DNA of 64,000 nucleotides from Niallia sp. Man26 (GTDB taxonomy: Bacteria > Bacillota > Bacilli > Bacillales > Cytobacillaceae), in contig NZ_CP095743.1 in NCBI RefSeq assembly GCF_022049065.2, positions 2,805,001 through 2,869,000 on the forward strand. Reading direction: 5' to 3'. The position numbers and the translations under genes were made by a program. The notes under the pieces were generated by a model. It was not told the DNA's origin, did not search any database, and saw only the letters and a list, made by a program, of their open reading frames with translations. Below, in pieces: positions 3 to 61,083 of the stretch. How positions within the stretch are numbered: position 1 is the first letter of the stretch; every line of letters starts with the position of its first letter.

Positions 3-1298
3 TCAGTTAATGGTGACTTCTACAGCACAGGAGCGCATATACTTCCGCTACTGAAGGAAAGCAATTTCTATCAGGAAGATGTACCTGATCTTAAGCATGA
101 TAGTCAATTTATCAATATTGAGTTTGATAAAACACTCAGAGACCGAATTAACACAATCCTTGGAAATAACAACTTAACAGCAACTGTTTCAACAACAGAG
201 GATATAAAGTATCTTCCAAGTGTATTAAAGCAGGAAATAAGCTCTAAGGTGACTACAAATGTTACCGAAAGTGAGATTGCAAAGACAGAAACACAGCAAG
301 TCCCTCAATCTGTGCTAGGAGACTCCCTTGAGGAGCTGGAGGGCGGTTTCACGATTGACAGTAAAACTGGTCCAATTCAATTTAATAATACAGTACAAGT
401 TAATGGAGATGTTGTTATAAACAGCAGCAACTATCCAATTACATTTAACAAAGATCTTATCGTTAATGGTGATTTATATGTTGTCAGCAATAAGGATATA
501 TCCCTTCAAGCTGTCAAGACAGCGGGCAATCTTCATCTTATTAACTTTGACGGCAATGTCACAGTTGCGCAAGACATGGTGGCTGCCGGAAAAATCGTAA
601 TAGAGTCCAGCGCTGACAAAACGGTTAACACAGCAAACGGAGTGAAGCTGAATGGCGATATCTTCTCAGGAACAACACTCAGCATTCGCCCCCTTAATAC
701 AGAAATGGATTTAAACAGTAATATTATCAGTCTTGGTTCTTTTACAGTCAAGGGCGATGAAACAGGGGAATCTGAACAAGAAAATGACATTGTGCGCTTT
801 AATTCTGTTGTTTATTCGAATGCAGACAGCTTTATCTCCAACGTTAATATTATTGGCCTGCCATACACAAATAATTTAGGTAACGCAACGGAAGGGCAGC
901 TGATACTGCTTTCAAAAGACAGGCTTACGATTACAAGGATGAATGAATTTAACAATTATGCTGACATGAATGAGCCGAGCTATCCGTACTTGCCAATCGA
1001 GGAAATGAATATCAAGCCATTACAAGCATTTTTCTATACAGAAAGGGATGCAGAATTATATGGAGTAGGTTCGTTGTTTTATATTAAAGGAGGCATATTT
1101 GCCAGAGGTTCTCTTGAAATCAATGCGATCAGAGCGAACCGCTCATTTAAAGCAATCGAAAATGTTCCTGGGTCAACAGAAGGTTACATGTCCAGATTCA
1201 TTGTTGATTATGACCAAGACGTATTATTGCAAGGAATAGATGCATTGCCGATAGTTGACCGCTTGCAGATTATTCCTGATGATTTTGTTATTCAATAA
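3..1298 (+). CDS. C-terminal part of a surface/pilus-associated beta-rich protein (5' truncated by the window)
   Basis: The frame is open from the first bases of the window, so the true start lies upstream; a GTG at 249 is an internal codon with no ribosome site. The visible 431 residues are rich in Asn, Val, Ile, Thr and Ser with alternating hydrophobic residues and recurring VNGD-type turns (roughly residues 130-160), which suggests a repetitive beta-sheet or beta-helix extracellular protein. No LPXTG motif or C-terminal membrane segment is seen; the chain ends in DDFVIQ. It is convergent with the VWA-domain gene at 1377-4217, and both may serve the cell surface. In B. subtilis this side of folC carries comC, spoIIB and maf instead. 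The family is not recognised. Confidence 0.6.
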   Translation, partial: SVNGDFYSTGAHILPLLKESNFYQEDVPDLKHDSQFINIEFDKTLRDRINTILGNNNLTATVSTTEDIKYLPSVLKQEISSKVTTNVTESEIAKTETQQVPQSVLGDSLEELEGGFTIDSKTGPIQFNNTVQVNGDVVINSSNYPITFNKDLIVNGDLYVVSNKDISLQAVKTAGNLHLINFDGNVTVAQDMVAAGKIVIESSADKTVNTANGVKLNGDIFSGTTLSIRPLNTEMDLNSNIISLGSFTVKGDETGESEQENDIVRFNSVVYSNADSFISNVNIIGLPYTNNLGNATEGQLILLSKDRLTITRMNEFNNYADMNEPSYPYLPIEEMNIKPLQAFFYTERDAELYGVGSLFYIKGGIFARGSLEINAIRANRSFKAIENVPGSTEGYMSRFIVDYDQDVLLQGIDALPIVDRLQIIPDDFVIQ

Positions 1299-1376: not shown

Positions 1377-4217
1377 TTACCATTTACCGTCCGTGCTGTT
1401 TCCAGAACCGCCGTTATCACCATCGTCTGTACTAGTATCCTCCACAACTTCAATCAAGGTGGATGCACTTGGACTTGTGCTATCTCTTTGTTCTTCTGCA
1501 GTTGCTGTCACATTTGAATAACCGACTTCTTTCCCTTTCAAGTAGTATTCGCCATCTTTATGAATGACTTCTACTTTATCTGGCTGATCTGCTACAACAC
1601 TAATAATATCTTTGTCTGTTGCGTTGCTTGGGTTGAAGATTAAGTTATCTGTTACTGGCAGCTCTTCCCCAACCTCCACTTGGTAGGCTGGTTTCGTGAA
1701 TTTAATTTCATCAAGGGCAATATACGGGTCCGTAACTGTCACCGGAATTCTTACCTCAAGATTAGAACCGTCTTTTGTCTTCACAATCAGCTCTGTTTCC
1801 CCTGCCTTATTTCCATAAATGCTGTACTTTCCATCAAGGATACTAGCTATTGATGTGTCAGCAAGTTTAATATCCAAGTCTTTGTTTGTGGCATTTTCCG
1901 GGTTAAAGGTAACAGTGAAGTCAGTCGTGCTTCCTACGATAATATTTATAGGGTTAGGCGTAACCGAAATAGATTGTACTTTATCTTGTATTGTAATTGT
2001 CTTTGTGATTTCCTGGCTGTTAGCAAAACCACCTTCAGCCTTAACGTGAATCGTATTCTTGCCTGTCTTGTCTATTATGATTGCTTCAGTTGGATTAAAT
2101 TTAATCCAACCTGTTGTCTCCTTGCCATTGTCCACTTTATAGGAGTAGACAACATCATCTCCTGCAACTTTCTGGACAAGCCTTGCCTCTACCGTTTCTG
2201 ATGCTGTTTCGCCACTTCCATATTTATCGCCTGTAGACTTTCCGGTCAAATCATAATCTGGCGTGAAATACAGATAGGCTTTACTGTCATCATTATACGT
2301 GATTTCTATTGCCTGATTGTTCGTCCCTTCTTTAAAAACCATATCTTTCACAGGCTTATTTTCAAGTCCATAATCTTCCTTGAAATCAGCAGTGCTTGCT
2401 ATTTTCGTATTTGTTGCCTGATCTCTCTTTTCAATCGTTCCTGCAGCATCACCTGTGTATACATTCGCTGTGTTTTCTTTTAACTGTACCTTCATATTAA
2501 TCATTTGCGATGATGCTGGAATCGTTGTTTGACTGCTGTATGAAAAACGAGAATCAGTAAAATATAAATTGGCGATTGGCATCGTCATATTAGTGACCGC
2601 CCAATCTACTTTCAGCGGCAAGGAAGCCGTAATTTCTGAGGGCGTAAAGCTGCCTTTTGCGTAGTTTGCCACATCACTTAATGACATCACTGCATAGTTT
2701 TTACCATTCCTTGACTCTACCTTCACATTATCCTTAGGAATAACCGTAATCCCAGCTGGCAATGGCTGTTCAATAACTAAATTCTGTAATTTGCCGCTGA
2801 CAGTGCTGTTCACTAAATTAATAGGCTTTAAAGAATAATTGACATTAAAATAATTTGTTCTGTCATTAGAATTGCTAGTTTTGACTAAATTATTTAAGTC
2901 ATTCACTACTTTTGACAGTGTCATAGAGGACTGGAAGCCGGCAGGTGCATCATCTTTAACAACAATCGTTGCAGAGGTTGATTTCTCCTGAAGCTTTCCA
3001 TCTAGATCGGTATATTCAAGCTTAATATTATCAAAATTATATGTCCCTTTTTGACTGAATGTCAAAGGCAGTGACACATCAATCGGAGTCATAACATTTT
3101 GATTGATTGGGAACAATATGTCCTTTTTAATGATTATATTTCCTGAAGAATCCAATGTAGCATTGGCATTGTCTGCAAGTTTAACAGTATCCCCAAACTT
3201 AGCAATATTAATTTTAACAGTAGCCGTGATAGTTGGTGTGGATACCTTCTGTGATATATCTTCAAATATTTTCGCAATAGTATCTGTTGAAGCCTGCTGT
3301 GCTGTCACACCAGTCTTCTCTGATAACTTACTTAAATAGCTCATATCTACTTCACTATTTGTCCCAAAGCCGACGGAATACAGCTTAATGTTATTGGCAG
3401 CAAGTTCGTCGACCTCTTCATCAACATATGATTTAATGGCTGTTTGCACTGTTTTTAAGCTGTTGGAAACAACTGTCCCATTAGAACGGACAGCAGTCGC
3501 TGTATTATTTGTATAAACAGTGTATGTTACTGTATCCTGCACTTTTTTGTCATAGCAGAAGTACTTAGATTGACAAACTCTATCAGTAAATGTCTCTACG
3601 TTTTTAGAAGATGTCGGCTCTCCATCTGTCATAAAGATGATATACTTCTTCGCTTGGCTTGTTCCAGTTGTTAACATGCTCCTTGCTTTTTGGAAGGATT
3701 GTGTATAGTTTGTTCCGCCAACGGCAGAAAGCTCCTTCACTCGGTTGTTAATAGTCTGCAGGTTTGTTCTCACATTATCTGTCGTTGGCGTGGACACAAC
3801 CGGAAAACTTACAACCTTATCTGTTTCCACATCTGTAGAAAAAGGAATAAGAGAAAACCTGTCATTTTTATTAGGATCTTGGCTAAAGAAAGCCGCCGCT
3901 TCAGCCATGGCATTTTTTGCACTCAAAAACTTATACGGGCTTTTGCCTAGCTCATCCATGGAGCCTGATTTATCAAAAACAAATGCAACATCTATTGGAG
4001 AACGATTTGCATTTGTTGCCTTCCCCTCAGGAGTTAAACGAATATCTAAACTTCCCTGTGCCGAACTGTTTGCCGGTTTAACGATAACACTTTGAGATGG
4101 TGTCACTGTAAAATTAACTGTCGGCGCTGATGCAGCCGCATTTGCTTGGAAGGGTATCAACAGCAATGACAGTATTGACAATATAATAAACTTACTGAAA
4201 CGTAACGCTCTCCTCAT
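1377..4217 (-). CDS. Secreted von Willebrand factor A domain protein with two bacterial Ig-like domains
   Basis: The 946-residue product starts with a Sec signal peptide (basic MRR, hydrophobic core about 10-21, AxA-type cleavage near residue 27). A VWA domain follows with a complete MIDAS metal site: DKSGS at 82-86, a Thr in GGTN near 169 and TDGE at 197-200. The C-terminus holds two Big_2-like repeats (about 747-831 and 832-927) sharing the NPxNATxKD signature, then an acidic Gly/Ser tail. No sortase motif or membrane anchor is visible, so it is either released or bound non-covalently to the wall. Metal-dependent adhesion or matrix binding is inferred from the VWA family. The ATG is preceded by a GGAGTGGGG ribosome site. 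It is monocistronic with its own terminator. Confidence 0.8.
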   Translation of the reverse strand: MRRALRFSKFIILSILSLLLIPFQANAAASAPTVNFTVTPSQSVIVKPANSSAQGSLDIRLTPEGKATNANRSPIDVAFVFDKSGSMDELGKSPYKFLSAKNAMAEAAAFFSQDPNKNDRFSLIPFSTDVETDKVVSFPVVSTPTTDNVRTNLQTINNRVKELSAVGGTNYTQSFQKARSMLTTGTSQAKKYIIFMTDGEPTSSKNVETFTDRVCQSKYFCYDKKVQDTVTYTVYTNNTATAVRSNGTVVSNSLKTVQTAIKSYVDEEVDELAANNIKLYSVGFGTNSEVDMSYLSKLSEKTGVTAQQASTDTIAKIFEDISQKVSTPTITATVKINIAKFGDTVKLADNANATLDSSGNIIIKKDILFPINQNVMTPIDVSLPLTFSQKGTYNFDNIKLEYTDLDGKLQEKSTSATIVVKDDAPAGFQSSMTLSKVVNDLNNLVKTSNSNDRTNYFNVNYSLKPINLVNSTVSGKLQNLVIEQPLPAGITVIPKDNVKVESRNGKNYAVMSLSDVANYAKGSFTPSEITASLPLKVDWAVTNMTMPIANLYFTDSRFSYSSQTTIPASSQMINMKVQLKENTANVYTGDAAGTIEKRDQATNTKIASTADFKEDYGLENKPVKDMVFKEGTNNQAIEITYNDDSKAYLYFTPDYDLTGKSTGDKYGSGETASETVEARLVQKVAGDDVVYSYKVDNGKETTGWIKFNPTEAIIIDKTGKNTIHVKAEGGFANSQEITKTITIQDKVQSISVTPNPINIIVGSTTDFTVTFNPENATNKDLDIKLADTSIASILDGKYSIYGNKAGETELIVKTKDGSNLEVRIPVTVTDPYIALDEIKFTKPAYQVEVGEELPVTDNLIFNPSNATDKDIISVVADQPDKVEVIHKDGEYYLKGKEVGYSNVTATAEEQRDSTSPSASTLIEVVEDTSTDDGDNGGSGNSTDGKW

Positions 4218-10404: not shown

Positions 10405-10655
10405 AATAAAAAACTCCCTTCGTCATAAAAGGACGAAGGGAGTTTTTCGCGGTACCACCTTTTTTCCAATATAAAAATATTGGCTCTTTCAAAGATGATA
10501 TCGGATGCTGTCCGTCTTTCACTAATAAGCTTTCCCGTTCGCAAAAGAAGCTCGAGGGCTACCTTCCAATGTGTTGAATGGAAATCTTTCAGCATGTGAT
10601 TTCCTCTCTAAAAAACAACTGGCATTGTACTACTCCCTGTCATTGCCTTTTTTAT
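10405..10655 (-). promoter_or_regulatory. T-box riboswitch of valS (Val GUA specifier)
   Basis: The minus strand shows all main T-box parts. The AGTA bulge lies in stem I. A specifier loop lies between the AGGG/CCCT and CAATG/CATTG helices. The T-box element GGTGGTACCGCG is at 10448-10460, and a competing terminator is at 10412-10444. Within the loop GUA (10560-10562) sits four bases from the upper helix and is followed by a purine, the same geometry as the Leu codon in the ilvB leader. Uncharged tRNA-Val is expected to stabilise the antiterminator. Confidence 0.9.
10412..10444 (-). terminator. T-box terminator of the valS leader
   Basis: A 13-bp perfect stem (10412-10424 with 10432-10444) is followed on the minus strand by a U-rich stretch. 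It overlaps the antiterminator partner next to the T-box sequence. Confidence 0.9.
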
Positions 10656-38934: not shown

Positions 38935-38993
38935 AAAAAAAGCCTTCACACCCCCAATGTATACTTTATAAGTAGACAAAGGGGTGAAAAGGC
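38935..38993 (-). terminator. T-box terminator of the ilv-leu leader
   Basis: A long GC-rich stem (38942-38955 with 38981-38993) is followed on the minus strand by seven U from the A tract at 38935-38941. Confidence 0.85.
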
Positions 38994-39240
38994 CATTTCA
39001 GCTTTCCACGGTACCACCCTCATTCATACATGAAACACATGTATGCACTCAATGAACAGTTCGTTCGTTTTTGGTAACGAGTGGCGTGTCACTCGGTCAG
39101 CTCTACTTCACTTTGTGTTTCAAGCTAACACTCAGAGGTGAGTTCATTTCTAATCGGCTTCACCGGTTCTCAGCAACCACCGGCTCTCTGTGGAATCCCA
39201 AAATTAGAAACTACTTATCCTCATCATCGTATTTTTCATT
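38935..39240 (-). promoter_or_regulatory. T-box riboswitch of the ilv-leu operon (Leu CUC specifier)
   Basis: The minus strand shows the AGTA bulge, the apical GGTG-containing stem I, and a specifier loop between TTTCTAAT/ATTAGAAA and GAGG/CCTC helices. In it CUC (39140-39142) is four bases from the upper helix and followed by A. The T-box element GGGTGGTACCGTGG is at 39006-39019, with a competing terminator after it. The Leu codon agrees with leucine-responsive control in B. subtilis. Confidence 0.92.
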
Positions 39241-51515: not shown

Positions 51516-51872
51516 CTATGATATGTTATCTAACGTCAGCAGGAATCGTTCAAAATATGGCTTTACGATGAAATCCTTCGCACCATGCTTTAAAGCAGCT
51601 GTAACATTCCTGCTTTGTCCCATCGCGGAACAAATAATGATTCTTGCATCACAATCAAATTCCATAATCCTTTGCAATGCTGTCATCCCATCCATACAAT
51701 CCATCGTTAAATCGAGGATAAGGATGTCCGGCTTCAGCTCTTTGTATACCGATACAGCCTCACAGCCGTCAGATGCTTCCCCGATGACTTTGTATTTGCT
51801 GTTATTTAATAGATTTTTTATGTAAGTTCTCATAAATAAAGAGTCGTCTGCAATAACAACCCTGACTTCCAA
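51516..51872 (-). CDS. Stand-alone CheY-like response regulator under c-di-GMP control
   Basis: The 118-residue protein is a single receiver domain close in pattern to Bacillus CheY: acidic pair in IADDSLFMR, phosphoacceptor Asp in DILILDLTMD, Ser in IICSAMGQ and Lys in DFIVKPYF. No output domain follows. TTG at 51870-51872 lies 8 nt after AGGAG. The longer frame to 51965 runs through the riboswitch and was rejected. No kinase is nearby; a target in motility, chemotaxis or sporulation signalling is possible. It is preceded by a c-di-GMP-I riboswitch. Confidence 0.85.
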   Translation of the reverse strand: MEVRVVIADDSLFMRTYIKNLLNNSKYKVIGEASDGCEAVSVYKELKPDILILDLTMDCMDGMTALQRIMEFDCDARIIICSAMGQSRNVTAALKHGAKDFIVKPYFERFLLTLDNIS

Positions 51873-51879
51873 TGTTACC

Positions 51880-51917
51880 ACTCCTAATTCTAACTTTGGC
51901 AAACTTAAGAAAGGAGT
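51880..51917 (-). promoter_or_regulatory. Anti-SD/SD pair in the riboswitch expression platform
   Basis: The ribosome site AGGAGT (51880-51885 on the minus strand) is complementary to ACTCCT at 51912-51917, between aptamer and gene. A perfect 6-bp pairing could hide the ribosome site, suggesting translational control. Confidence 0.5.
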
Positions 51918-51945
51918 AATTTGTATGTATGCAGGACTTAAGATT

Positions 51946-52030
51946 CCTGGCAGCCCGGCTGCCATTGCTGTTGCTTTAGGCCCGTGGCTTTGCGTCTTTT
52001 ACTTTCGTAAAATTTGCCAATGATTTTATC
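51946..52030 (-). promoter_or_regulatory. Cyclic-di-GMP-I (GEMM) riboswitch
   Basis: The minus strand shows GGCAAA, then P2 capped by a GAAA tetraloop (TTTTACGAAAGTAAAA), then the invariant GACGCAAAGCC and GGGCCTAA, and the closing GGCAGCCGGGCTGCC (51949-51963). This order and these bases match the GEMM-I consensus, including the tetraloop that docks into the P3 receptor. It lies about 75 nt upstream of the CheY-like start. Confidence 0.88.
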
Positions 52031-52480
52031 ATAGCACAGTATTTTTCAACTATATAGTTGTTTTTATAAGGAAATGAAAGAACATAAACAGCTTGTTAAA
52101 TGAGCAACAAAAATCCTTTCACCTAAAAAAAAACTTGGAATACAATTAGACTATATCCCAGATTTTAATATGTATACTTGATTGCCTACTACCAATACGT
52201 ACAAAGTAAGGTCTATTTTTTATGAGATCCTTTCTTTTCATTACAGAATCCAACAATTCTATCTCCCAACCTTCCATTTTCTTTATTTCAAATATACCCC
52301 ACAAATTAATCATTTTCTTTTTTGGTTAATTGTATGATTTATTATAATTTTTGTTCGGAATTTTACTGATATCTATAAAAATATACGTTTGCCCTATATC
52401 TCGGCATTGCAATTATAAATATAATGCCTAATTAATACATGCACAAAAAAGAGTCATTTACATAAATAGGCAGGTAACAT
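52031..52480. other. Gap between the riboswitch and the CotB-like cluster
   Basis: This AT-rich stretch has no open frame of note. It must contain the minus-strand promoter for the riboswitch transcript; I could not single out convincing hexamers. Confidence 0.35.
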
Positions 52481-53095: not shown

Positions 53096-53116
53096 CTCAT
53101 TTAGGAGGTGGTTCTT

Positions 53117-54511
53117 ATGGGAGAATTCACTTTTTCCAATGCACTTGATAGACTGAAAAGATTCAAGATACGACTTTTCCTAAATAAAGATCAATATGTG
53201 GAAGGCACATTACTCGATGTAAAAGAGGATCATTTAATTCTAGAAACGAATGGAAACATCTACTATTTCGCATTAGACCAGATTCATGCTATTACAAAAA
53301 ATGCAAAAGACAATAATCCATTACCTTTAGAATTTCCACTTGAGACTAAAAAAGACTTAAATGAATTATTAGAGGAATTACGTTACAGTTGGGTGACCAT
53401 TACTTGCAACTCCAATCAGGTTTTTAAAGGGATGCTTAGTAAAGTGACCGACGACTTCTTAATTTTAATTAATAAGGAAGAACAAATGTATATTCTTAAA
53501 ACCTCTATCATTAATATCTTTAATGGCCTGCAAGAGGATAATAGTCCTTCTTCTAATCAGGAGCAGTCGTCTAATAAAGAAGATGATTCTTCACAAATCC
53601 GTATGGAAGAAGTAGCAGAAAACAGCGAATCATCTAAGGAAACTGCTGCTGATTATGATACAGGAACAAGAAATGATGCTGACTCCGAACACAGCACAGA
53701 ACCAGTTAAAAGTGAGGTCTACGATTTCAGCACAAACTCAGTTGAAGATACAGTTTCTGATTTCAACACAGATCCAGCTGAAGATGCGGTCTCTGCTTTC
53801 AACACGGAACCAGTTGCAGATACGGTCTCTGCTTTCAACACGGAACCAGCTGAAGATGCGGTCTCTGCTTTCAACACGGAACCAGCTGAAGATACGGTCT
53901 CTGCTTTCAACACGGAACCAGTTGCAGATGCGGTCTCTGCTTTCAACACGGAACCAGTTGCAGATGCGGTCTCTGCTTTCAACACGGAATCAGTTGCAGA
54001 TGCGGTCTCAGTCGAATCAGACCCTATCATAAGTGGTGTTCGTGAAACAAACAACGGCTATGCTGATTTGCCACCAAGAAAGAACAAGAAACAAGATAAT
54101 ACACTGCATGACTTTTTGACAAATGTTCTATCACAAAAATACAAAGGAAGTGCTGACACTTTGGAAAAATCTCCTAAAGCTGAAAGTGATCAAGTTTCTC
54201 CAAAGAAAGAAGTGAAACCGACGGAGAACAATACAGCAGCAGATAGTATCTTTAAGCATCCTCTTAATCCCTTAGGCTCTTCTTTAAGAAGCAAAAAAAG
54301 CCACACTGAACAAGAAAAGAAAAAGGAAGCGGAAGTTCAGGAAGTTCCTTTAAATACTACAAATAATACAAAAACAGATGTAAAAACACAGATAATCAAT
54401 GCAAAAGATCAAAAACTCGCACTGGAGAAGCAGTATTTTGCCTTAATGAAACATGCCGAATATATGTACAAGAAAATCAGAGAAGAACGACTAAAAAAAT
54501 CAAAGAAATGA
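53117..54511 (+). CDS. CotB-like spore coat protein 2 with a 12-residue repeat array
   Basis: The 464-residue protein starts with two CotB-type modules (about 8-55, IRLFLNKDQYVEGTLLDV to FALDQIHAITK; about 90-135). An acidic linker and nine tandem 12-residue units (consensus TEPVADAVSAFN) follow at about 194-301. The C-terminus is Lys-rich with a coiled-coil-like end (LEKQYFALMKHAEYMYKKIREERLKKSKK). ATG at 53117 lies 8 nt after AGGAGG; a GTG inside that site was rejected. The repeats suggest length variation between strains. Confidence 0.75.
   Translation: MGEFTFSNALDRLKRFKIRLFLNKDQYVEGTLLDVKEDHLILETNGNIYYFALDQIHAITKNAKDNNPLPLEFPLETKKDLNELLEELRYSWVTITCNSNQVFKGMLSKVTDDFLILINKEEQMYILKTSIINIFNGLQEDNSPSSNQEQSSNKEDDSSQIRMEEVAENSESSKETAADYDTGTRNDADSEHSTEPVKSEVYDFSTNSVEDTVSDFNTDPAEDAVSAFNTEPVADTVSAFNTEPAEDAVSAFNTEPAEDTVSAFNTEPVADAVSAFNTEPVADAVSAFNTESVADAVSVESDPIISGVRETNNGYADLPPRKNKKQDNTLHDFLTNVLSQKYKGSADTLEKSPKAESDQVSPKKEVKPTENNTAADSIFKHPLNPLGSSLRSKKSHTEQEKKKEAEVQEVPLNTTNNTKTDVKTQIINAKDQKLALEKQYFALMKHAEYMYKKIREERLKKSKK
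53696..54019 (+). repeat. Nine in-frame 36-bp tandem repeats
   Basis: Nine 36-bp units lie head to tail in CotB-like gene 2. The central six are nearly identical, differing mainly at the GTTGCA/GCTGAA and GCG/ACG codons; the first two and the last are degenerate. The pattern fits recent unequal crossover or slippage. Confidence 0.92.
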
Positions 54512-60849: not shown

Positions 60850-61060
60850 GTGCAGGTAAATACATATAAATGTGCACAAACAGCGAGATAGCTCTCCAAA
60901 ACAGTTCCTTGTTTTGACAGTCTTACATTTATTCAATGCAAAACCAGCAAAGGAACGATGAGTTATCCCTTCACTTCGGCGATCTTCCCTTTCATAATTC
61001 TTCAATGAAGCTCATCCTTCTCCGAATTATTACTATTGAAGCTCGCACCTCTACCTTCAC
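60821..61060 (-). promoter_or_regulatory. Lysine riboswitch (L-box) of lysC
   Basis: The minus strand has AGGTAGAGGTGCGA at the 5' end (61041-61057), TGAAAGGGAAGATCGCCGAAG in the middle, and GAGAGCTATCTC closing the core (about 60885-60897), all L-box landmarks. A terminator at 60821-60849 follows. Lysine should favour termination. Confidence 0.9.
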
Positions 61061-61083
61061 TTATTAAGTTATAAGTTGCCATC

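Follow-up and report, generated by a model that had tools for sequence, protein, structure and literature searches.

A c-di-GMP-I (GEMM-I) riboswitch in the genome of Niallia sp. Man26 probably governs the translation of a stand-alone CheY paralogue, acting in our folding model as a kinetic OFF switch. The aptamer, its target gene, the recurrence of the pair in relatives, a covarying alternative helix and the complementarity of a strand to the Shine-Dalgarno (SD) sequence were all computed, starting from a stretch of 64,000 nucleotides of contig NZ_CP095743.1 (positions 2,805,001 to 2,869,000 of the forward strand, hereafter the window). A lone CheY under GEMM-I suggests a previously undescribed route from c-di-GMP to cell movement. 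Positions of the features discussed are given in Table 1.

Table 1. Features of the riboswitch-CheY locus (positions within the window)
Feature	Position	Strand	Remarks
c-di-GMP-I (GEMM-I) riboswitch aptamer	52028..51946	-	RF01051, 79.7 bits against a gathering score of 35
Candidate extended -10 promoter element, TGCTATGAT	52028..52036	-	Abuts the aptamer; by eye
Switching strand A, UUGGCAAAUUU (junction and 5' strand of P2)	52010..52020	-	11 contiguous bp with A'
GAAAG of the P2 loop, alternative partner of anti-SD CUUUC	52002..52006	-	Pairing probability 0.88 in RNA cut before the SD
Anti-SD strand	51908..51920	-	Predicted to form 13 pairs with the SD strand when the aptamer is folded
Anti-aptamer strand A', AAGUUUGCCAA	51896..51906	-	A:A' duplex, -12.7 kcal/mol
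SD strand, AGGAG at 51885-51881	51877..51891	-	Unpaired 0.02 with the aptamer formed, 0.74 in the A:A' model
Lone CheY-like single-domain response regulator, 118 aa, TTG start	51516..51872	-	PF00072, 90 bits
Terminator-like hairpin and T-run after the stop codon	51479..51515	-	By eye

A complete c-di-GMP-I aptamer in front of a lone cheY gene

The sequence-only reading of this locus had placed the landmarks of a GEMM-I aptamer on the minus strand, and all of them are present: GGCAAA, a P2 hairpin UUUUAC-GAAA-GUAAAA, GACGCAAAGCC, GGGCCUAA and GGCAGCC/GGGCUGCC. The Infernal search proposed with that reading, run with cmscan over the whole window, gave a significant and complete match to RF01051 (model positions 1-87 of 87, E 4.8e-14, zero non-standard pairs flagged), which was the best-of-clan model retained at the site, and the score was the same when the search was limited to 901 bases. 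With a covariance score above the gathering score over the full model, the aptamer is confirmed by sequence as a real c-di-GMP-I riboswitch. It lies in the 5' UTR of a gene on the same strand, the aptamer ending at 51946 and the TTG start of the lone cheY gene standing at 51872, a gap of 73 nt. Since the candidate -10 element adjoins the aptamer, the RNA would start a few bases 5' of GGCAAA; the element is absent from the list of our hexamer scan, and TGCTA-type motifs were seen by eye just 5' of GGCAAA in several relatives.

The only downstream gene encodes, as had been read from the sequence, a single receiver-domain protein, the PF00072 match covering residues 5-109 of 118 and the protein ending nine residues past it. 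AGGAG precedes the TTG start, and both are conserved in the closest relatives (L026, L027 and G012), whilst the upstream in-frame opening varies, so that the TTG is the likely start. An alternative ATG at 51965, in frame and inside the aptamer (149 aa), was rejected on account of this variability. The terminator-like hairpin behind the stop codon, which is absent from the scan list, probably makes this a one-gene transcript. The active site is intact at each of the six positions checked (D, D, D, S, F, K), and the protein thus combines the CheY residue set (acid pair, Asp, Ser/Thr, Phe/Tyr, Lys) with a single receiver domain; the closest solved chains are also CheY proteins (1tmy and 4iga). 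The gene stands alone, outside any fla/che operon and outside the 32-row clade of canonical CheY proteins described below, and the protein scores below the NCBIfam CheY equivalog cut-offs (CheY_Halo, 102.4 against 200 bits; PRK10610, 47.8 against 189 bits), those models belonging, judging by their names, to other lineages.

Besides the gene itself, the best match in its own genome is the CheY of the fla operon (50% identity), encoded between FliY-like and FliO-like ORFs (by eye), and two further CheY-like paralogues show 41% and 48% identity. The nearest species-named relative is Niallia taxi (L027, 84% protein identity). Given the match to the fla-operon CheY, an output in motility or chemotaxis is likely, and a Spo0F-type phosphorelay protein was set aside. 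The c-di-GMP-I riboswitch and its stand-alone CheY-like target thus stand as originally proposed, whilst the link drawn at the same time to phosphorelay signalling was too loose in view of that match.

An alternative helix between the aptamer and its platform

The energy of the A:A' helix in the window was matched by none of 500 shuffles. In most leaders A' (AAUUUGCC or AAGUUUGCC) is complementary to GGCAAAUU within the aptamer itself and is followed by the SD core at a distance of 6-19 nt (49 leaders), and a pyrimidine strand just 5' of A' is complementary to the SD. The shuffle test gave 0.026 or better in 16 of 20 leaders, L006, which does not precede CheY, being included; it failed in L029, L030, L032 and L071, and A' is missing in L032.

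As GGCAAA is invariant and the leaders were selected by TTGCC, which makes the core pairing present by choice, flanking positions were tested instead of the core. Pairing there was found in 12 of 13 leaders of a first set (p 0.014), in 47 of 49 leaders of a larger set (permutation mean 38.5) and, with the order-wide set, in 59 of 61 distinct leaders (permutation mean 48.1; none of 20,000 permutations reached 59), these permutations ignoring the kinship of the leaders. The pair types beside the invariant GGCAAA were G-U (37), A-U (14), U-A (6) and G-C (2). Matching of the anti-SD to its own rather than to a swapped SD fell short of significance on 12 loci (p 0.10), reached p 0.002 on 49 leaders and was equalled by none of 20,000 permutations on 61.

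The platform goes with a particular P2. Of 71 distinct aptamers whose P2 is the AU-rich one (UUUUAC/GUAAAA), 58 have TTTGCC within the 140 nt 3' of the aptamer, against 5 of 41 with another P2, three of these five having the same P2 or nearly so. An A' strand with an SD behind it is lacking in 10 of 86 aptamers with this P2, four of which precede CheY (L029, L169, L229 and L261). Four Niallia genomes hold orphan aptamers with the same P2 and no A' strand (L007, in the genome of the window, L237, L239 and L240); a search for ORFs with an SD-like motif gave none behind the last three, and L007 is followed only by short ORFs. In L071 (Aquisalibacillus) a terminator replaces the SD hairpin, and its loop UUCGGCGG is complementary to the 3' end of the aptamer, CCGCCGAA (by eye).

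Direction of control

We infer c-di-GMP as the ligand, an OFF sign, kinetic control and the flagellar motor as the output. In the absence of c-di-GMP, A' (AAGUUUGCCAA) would invade the aptamer as it emerges by pairing with A (UUGGCAAAUUU), the anti-SD CUUUC would pair with GAAAG of the P2 loop, and the ribosome site would be left open, so that CheY would be made. Were c-di-GMP bound before A' emerges, the aptamer would be locked and A' unable to pair, and the locked aptamer would lead to pairing of the anti-SD with the SD, turning translation off. The second messenger would then reduce the level of an additional CheY, whose most likely site of action is the flagellar switch.

Folding predictions for the window place the SD in the hidden state with the aptamer formed and mostly in the open state with A:A' forced (Table 1). 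In RNA ending 2-8 nt past A', before the SD, A:A' had a probability of 1.00 in the window; of 16 leaders, 15 gave 0.93 or more and L174 gave 0.24-0.34. In the larger set, 52 of 61 leaders gave 0.9 or more, and A:A' was not favoured in four of the 61 (L198, L260, L272 and L174). The anti-SD CUUUC paired with GAAAG at probabilities of 0.33-0.98 in the 13 of 16 leaders that could be scored, so that one strand can serve both folds. At full length, the free minimum of the window leader (-43.1 kcal/mol) hides the SD and the A:A' state lies 4.8 kcal/mol higher; A:A' coincides with the free minimum in just four of the 16 leaders (L028, L038, L047 and L178), and the ON state would therefore mostly need kinetic trapping. 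With A:A' imposed, 13 of 16 leaders had the SD unpaired at 0.47 or more, the others being L006 (0.39), L174 (0.11) and L038 (0.07).

The opposite sign would result if the free RNA folded into an H-type pseudoknot, with A:A' and anti-SD:SD together hiding the ribosome site, and if c-di-GMP, by removing strand A, left behind a hairpin too weak to keep it closed, so that the ligand turned translation on. The strands do follow each other in the order that such a pseudoknot demands (A, anti-SD, A', SD), the gap of 6-19 nt between A' and the SD core is in most of the 49 leaders enough to cross a helix of 8-11 bp, the length needed being a rule of thumb, and the SD is still paired in the A:A' model of L038 and L174. 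We nevertheless regard this arrangement as unlikely, given that the anti-SD:SD hairpin is predicted to be stable on its own (the SD of the window being 0.02 unpaired once the aptamer has formed), that the two helices compete wherever CUUUC pairs with GAAAG in the A:A' state (0.33-0.98), and that the terminator version of L071, judged by eye, can be read as OFF too.

On another reading this would be an ordinary GEMM-I riboswitch with nothing special in its platform, the alternative pairing being a by-product of common descent. The near-identical P2 of the leaders would allow for a single ancestor, and kinship is ignored by the permutations, but the stretch from the aptamer to A' is highly variable whilst A' is retained, four pair types occur at the flanking position, and the same platform stands before unrelated genes, all of which makes such a by-product improbable. 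As to the ligand, cGAMP aptamers differ at one specificity base, and the aptamer could in principle recognise a different cyclic dinucleotide (3',3'-cGAMP, the ligand of GEMM-Ib) or have lost binding; with RF01051 the best clan model at the site and 23 GGDEF hits in the genome, we give this hardly any credence.

Recurrence of the pairing and phylogeny of the CheY proteins

The sequence-only reading had proposed a comparison of the locus among relatives, and there the pairing of aptamer and lone CheY recurs. A protein scan of genome contigs yielded 80 loci, and an Rfam scan of 20 of these, chosen for their Bacillaceae-like titles, found RF01051 directly upstream on the same strand in 12 (L026-L032, L038, L045, L047, L060 and L071). 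The aptamer of L047, from Anoxybacillus vitaminiphilus, is barely above the gathering score (39.6 bits). A motif search of L034-L105 added L094 from Clostridium sp. LS (65.4 bits), whose leader also contains CUUUGCC (by eye). A profile (A1) of 13 riboswitch-linked proteins matched at 173 bits or more in 6 of 13 Niallia genomes and in 14 of 151 genomes of the family, the next match scoring 160.6 bits; the aptamer motif was present at all 14 family matches, only six of which are independent (G006, G012, G044, G049, G064 and G085), the other eight being members of A1. Among the lower-scoring CheY loci fetched, the motif, which misses degenerate aptamers, was present in 1 of 40 (L178) and absent in 39.

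Including the window, 32 lone CheY proteins are encoded directly under GEMM-I (31 further loci), and the motif check found an aptamer at none of 39 other CheY loci. The 32 riboswitch-linked rows and 41 others of our alignment give no rate, since 12 of the 32 (L198-L203, L223 and L225-L229) were found through the aptamer itself. For nine lone CheYs without an aptamer, there was no weak RF01051 match directly upstream either, up to an E of 1. One of these nine, L101 from Halalkalibacter hemicellulosilyticus, has a GEMM-I aptamer before an EAL gene (PF00563, 160.7 bits), with the lone cheY 36 nt further on (L101:2076-3342). Neighbouring genes in ten loci are mostly unlike between genera, L045 and L060 sharing one (by eye). 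In L261 RF01051 occurs twice on opposite strands, at 1491-1579 (+) before cheY and at 1160-1247 (-). L028 (JAGGRA010000056.1), labelled Pseudomonas sp. ISL-84, carries a Bacillaceae-like lone CheY and is probably a mislabelled record.

The tree of these proteins (73 rows, 32 of them riboswitch-linked, and 120 columns) has many unresolved forks. Canonical CheY and its relatives form a clade of 32 rows with zero riboswitch-linked members (support 100/99), the window protein falls within a clade of 16 rows which are all riboswitch-linked (98/87), and a second fully riboswitch-linked set comprises ten rows (100/99). The riboswitch label changes 6 times on the tree against a shuffled mean of 24.

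Changes in the phosphorylation pocket

The second acidic residue is lost in 11 of the 32 riboswitch-linked CheYs, being replaced by Arg in six, His in four and Ser in one, and in six of these 11 Glu also replaces the phospho-acceptor Asp. Counting either change, none was found in the nine riboswitch-free lone CheYs or in the 32 canonical and other CheYs; this contrast is biased, since ten variants were found via the aptamer whilst the aptamer-free rows came from similarity searches with mostly intact proteins, and sampling could have missed pocket variants without a riboswitch. The count leaves out the order-level CheYs found later, which by eye retain both acids with the exception of L262, the same gene as L228. 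Because ten of the 11 variants form one set and L047 lies elsewhere, there were probably two losses. In L047 the weak aptamer (39.6 bits) is accompanied by changes of both pocket acids (E and H), as if the two were decaying together.

An enteric CheY carrying D13K and Y106W is described, in the passage cited, as constitutively active and as mimicking CheY-P (PMC11528121), and by analogy we infer that a basic residue at the second acidic position may confer activity without phosphate. As the pocket is changed and the riboswitch kept in some relatives, phosphorylation need not be part of the output; the protein sequences suggest that in some lineages CheY is controlled by its amount instead. One can go further and suppose that across the Bacillaceae and neighbouring families a c-di-GMP riboswitch doses a second CheY, that dosage has replaced phosphorylation in some lineages (those with Arg, His or Ser for the second acid and, in one lineage, also Asp to Glu), and that these variants are permanently active motor regulators with c-di-GMP as their sole input. 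Taken as a whole this proposal is tentative and, in our view, rather doubtful; the pocket-variant lineages would then show a two-component regulator rewired from phosphorylation to dosage.

Relation to known systems

GEMM-I, its position before sinI (PMC4342826) and an 'off' riboswitch upstream of mcpA (PMC7793685) are already in print. In the excerpts cited, the Cd1 and pilM riboswitches follow a P-A-T-H scheme of alternative pairing between aptamer and platform (PMC9262584). The window locus resembles these and the RF01051 class in its complete aptamer, its 5' UTR position and its alternative aptamer-platform pairing; unlike Cd1 and pilM, which in those excerpts have terminator platforms, it has a strand that pairs with the 5' strand of the aptamer (GGCAAA and P2) and would hide or free the SD. 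The mcpA case of B. thuringiensis likewise combines, by the cited account, a chemotaxis gene with an OFF c-di-GMP riboswitch in Bacillus, but mcpA encodes a chemoreceptor and not a CheY. The (c-di-GMP)-sinI riboswitch of B. methanolicus, as cited, has counterparts in the three GEMM-I-SinI loci of the window genome, although sinI has no receiver domain; cheY is absent from the main text of PMC4342826, where two of four c-di-GMP riboswitch targets are given as of unknown function.

A response regulator gene under a c-di-GMP riboswitch is known from cmrRST of C. difficile (PMC12548384), but according to the cited portion this system differs from the window CheY in its OmpR-family regulators, a riboswitch that raises transcription and an invertible element. 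The CheY-like Cle proteins of Caulobacter are tied to c-di-GMP and to the flagellar motor, with a polar localisation independent of the potential phosphoryl acceptor (PMC5677366); as described there, their binding of c-di-GMP is direct and their C-terminus carries an arginine-rich extension, whereas the window CheY has no extension and would be controlled at the RNA level. A c-di-GMP riboswitch before a lone cheY was not found in the open-licence PMC literature, among the matches listed, subscription riboswitch work lying mostly outside it. The same applies, as weak evidence of absence among the matches listed, to the A' platform and to the pocket changes.

Whether a cell swims or settles is decided by c-di-GMP, and proteins acting on the motor are known among its effectors. 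With a CheY under riboswitch control there would be an RNA route to motor control, one that recurs in Gram-positive bacteria. A sequence search can pick out the platform, made of complements of GGCAAA and GAAAG, which indicates a small shared regulon with a protein of 61-73 aa among its members.

Other targets of the aptamer and genome context

The 5.7 Mb genome carries 13 GEMM-I aptamers, together with the GGDEF hits mentioned above, and Pfam was run on the genes behind ten of the other twelve (L007 and L013 were left out). SinI-type anti-repressors lie behind three of them (L004, L008 and L009; PF08671, 41.8-51.3 bits), so that the SinI/SinR biofilm switch may be under c-di-GMP control at several points. 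Chemotaxis is represented a second time among the targets in this genome, by the PAS and MCP-signal chemoreceptor gene downstream of the L002 aptamer. The remaining targets encode a ketoacyl-ACP synthase III-like protein (L003), a pyridoxal decarboxylase (L010), a fibronectin-III protein (L012) and a protein with a TSP3-repeat match below Pfam's cut-off (L011); the targets of L001 and L006 gave no Pfam family.

The P2 pattern was found in 54 of 193 genomes of the family, and the targets at 30 fetched loci were a lone CheY (8), the protein of 61-73 aa (18, one of which, L222, was read from stretch L254), a PAS protein (3) and no ORF (1); the one PAS target of the three that was tested combines PAS with GGDEF. 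Across the order the pattern occurred in 14 of 299 genomes, the window genome included. Outside that genome there are 14 order-wide sites, of which 10 precede a lone CheY and 4 the small protein; they fall in nine family codes, including that of the window genome, and RF01051 was confirmed at all 13 of the 14 that were scanned. The small protein, which gave no Pfam family for the two tested, often starts with MFYPT, mostly has CxC and CxxC motifs and occurs in several families of the order (L006 in the window genome, L194, L196, L204-L208, L210-L217 and L264-L267 among other loci).

Elsewhere in the window there are two T-box leaders and a lysine riboswitch, at 10426-10652, 38977-39236 and 60881-61061 (-), all above their gathering scores. 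A gene at 53108-54511 on the plus strand encodes a protein that matches DUF2642 close to its start and contains, by eye, repeats of the type AFNTEPVADAVS, over which a FAM47 match probably reflects composition.
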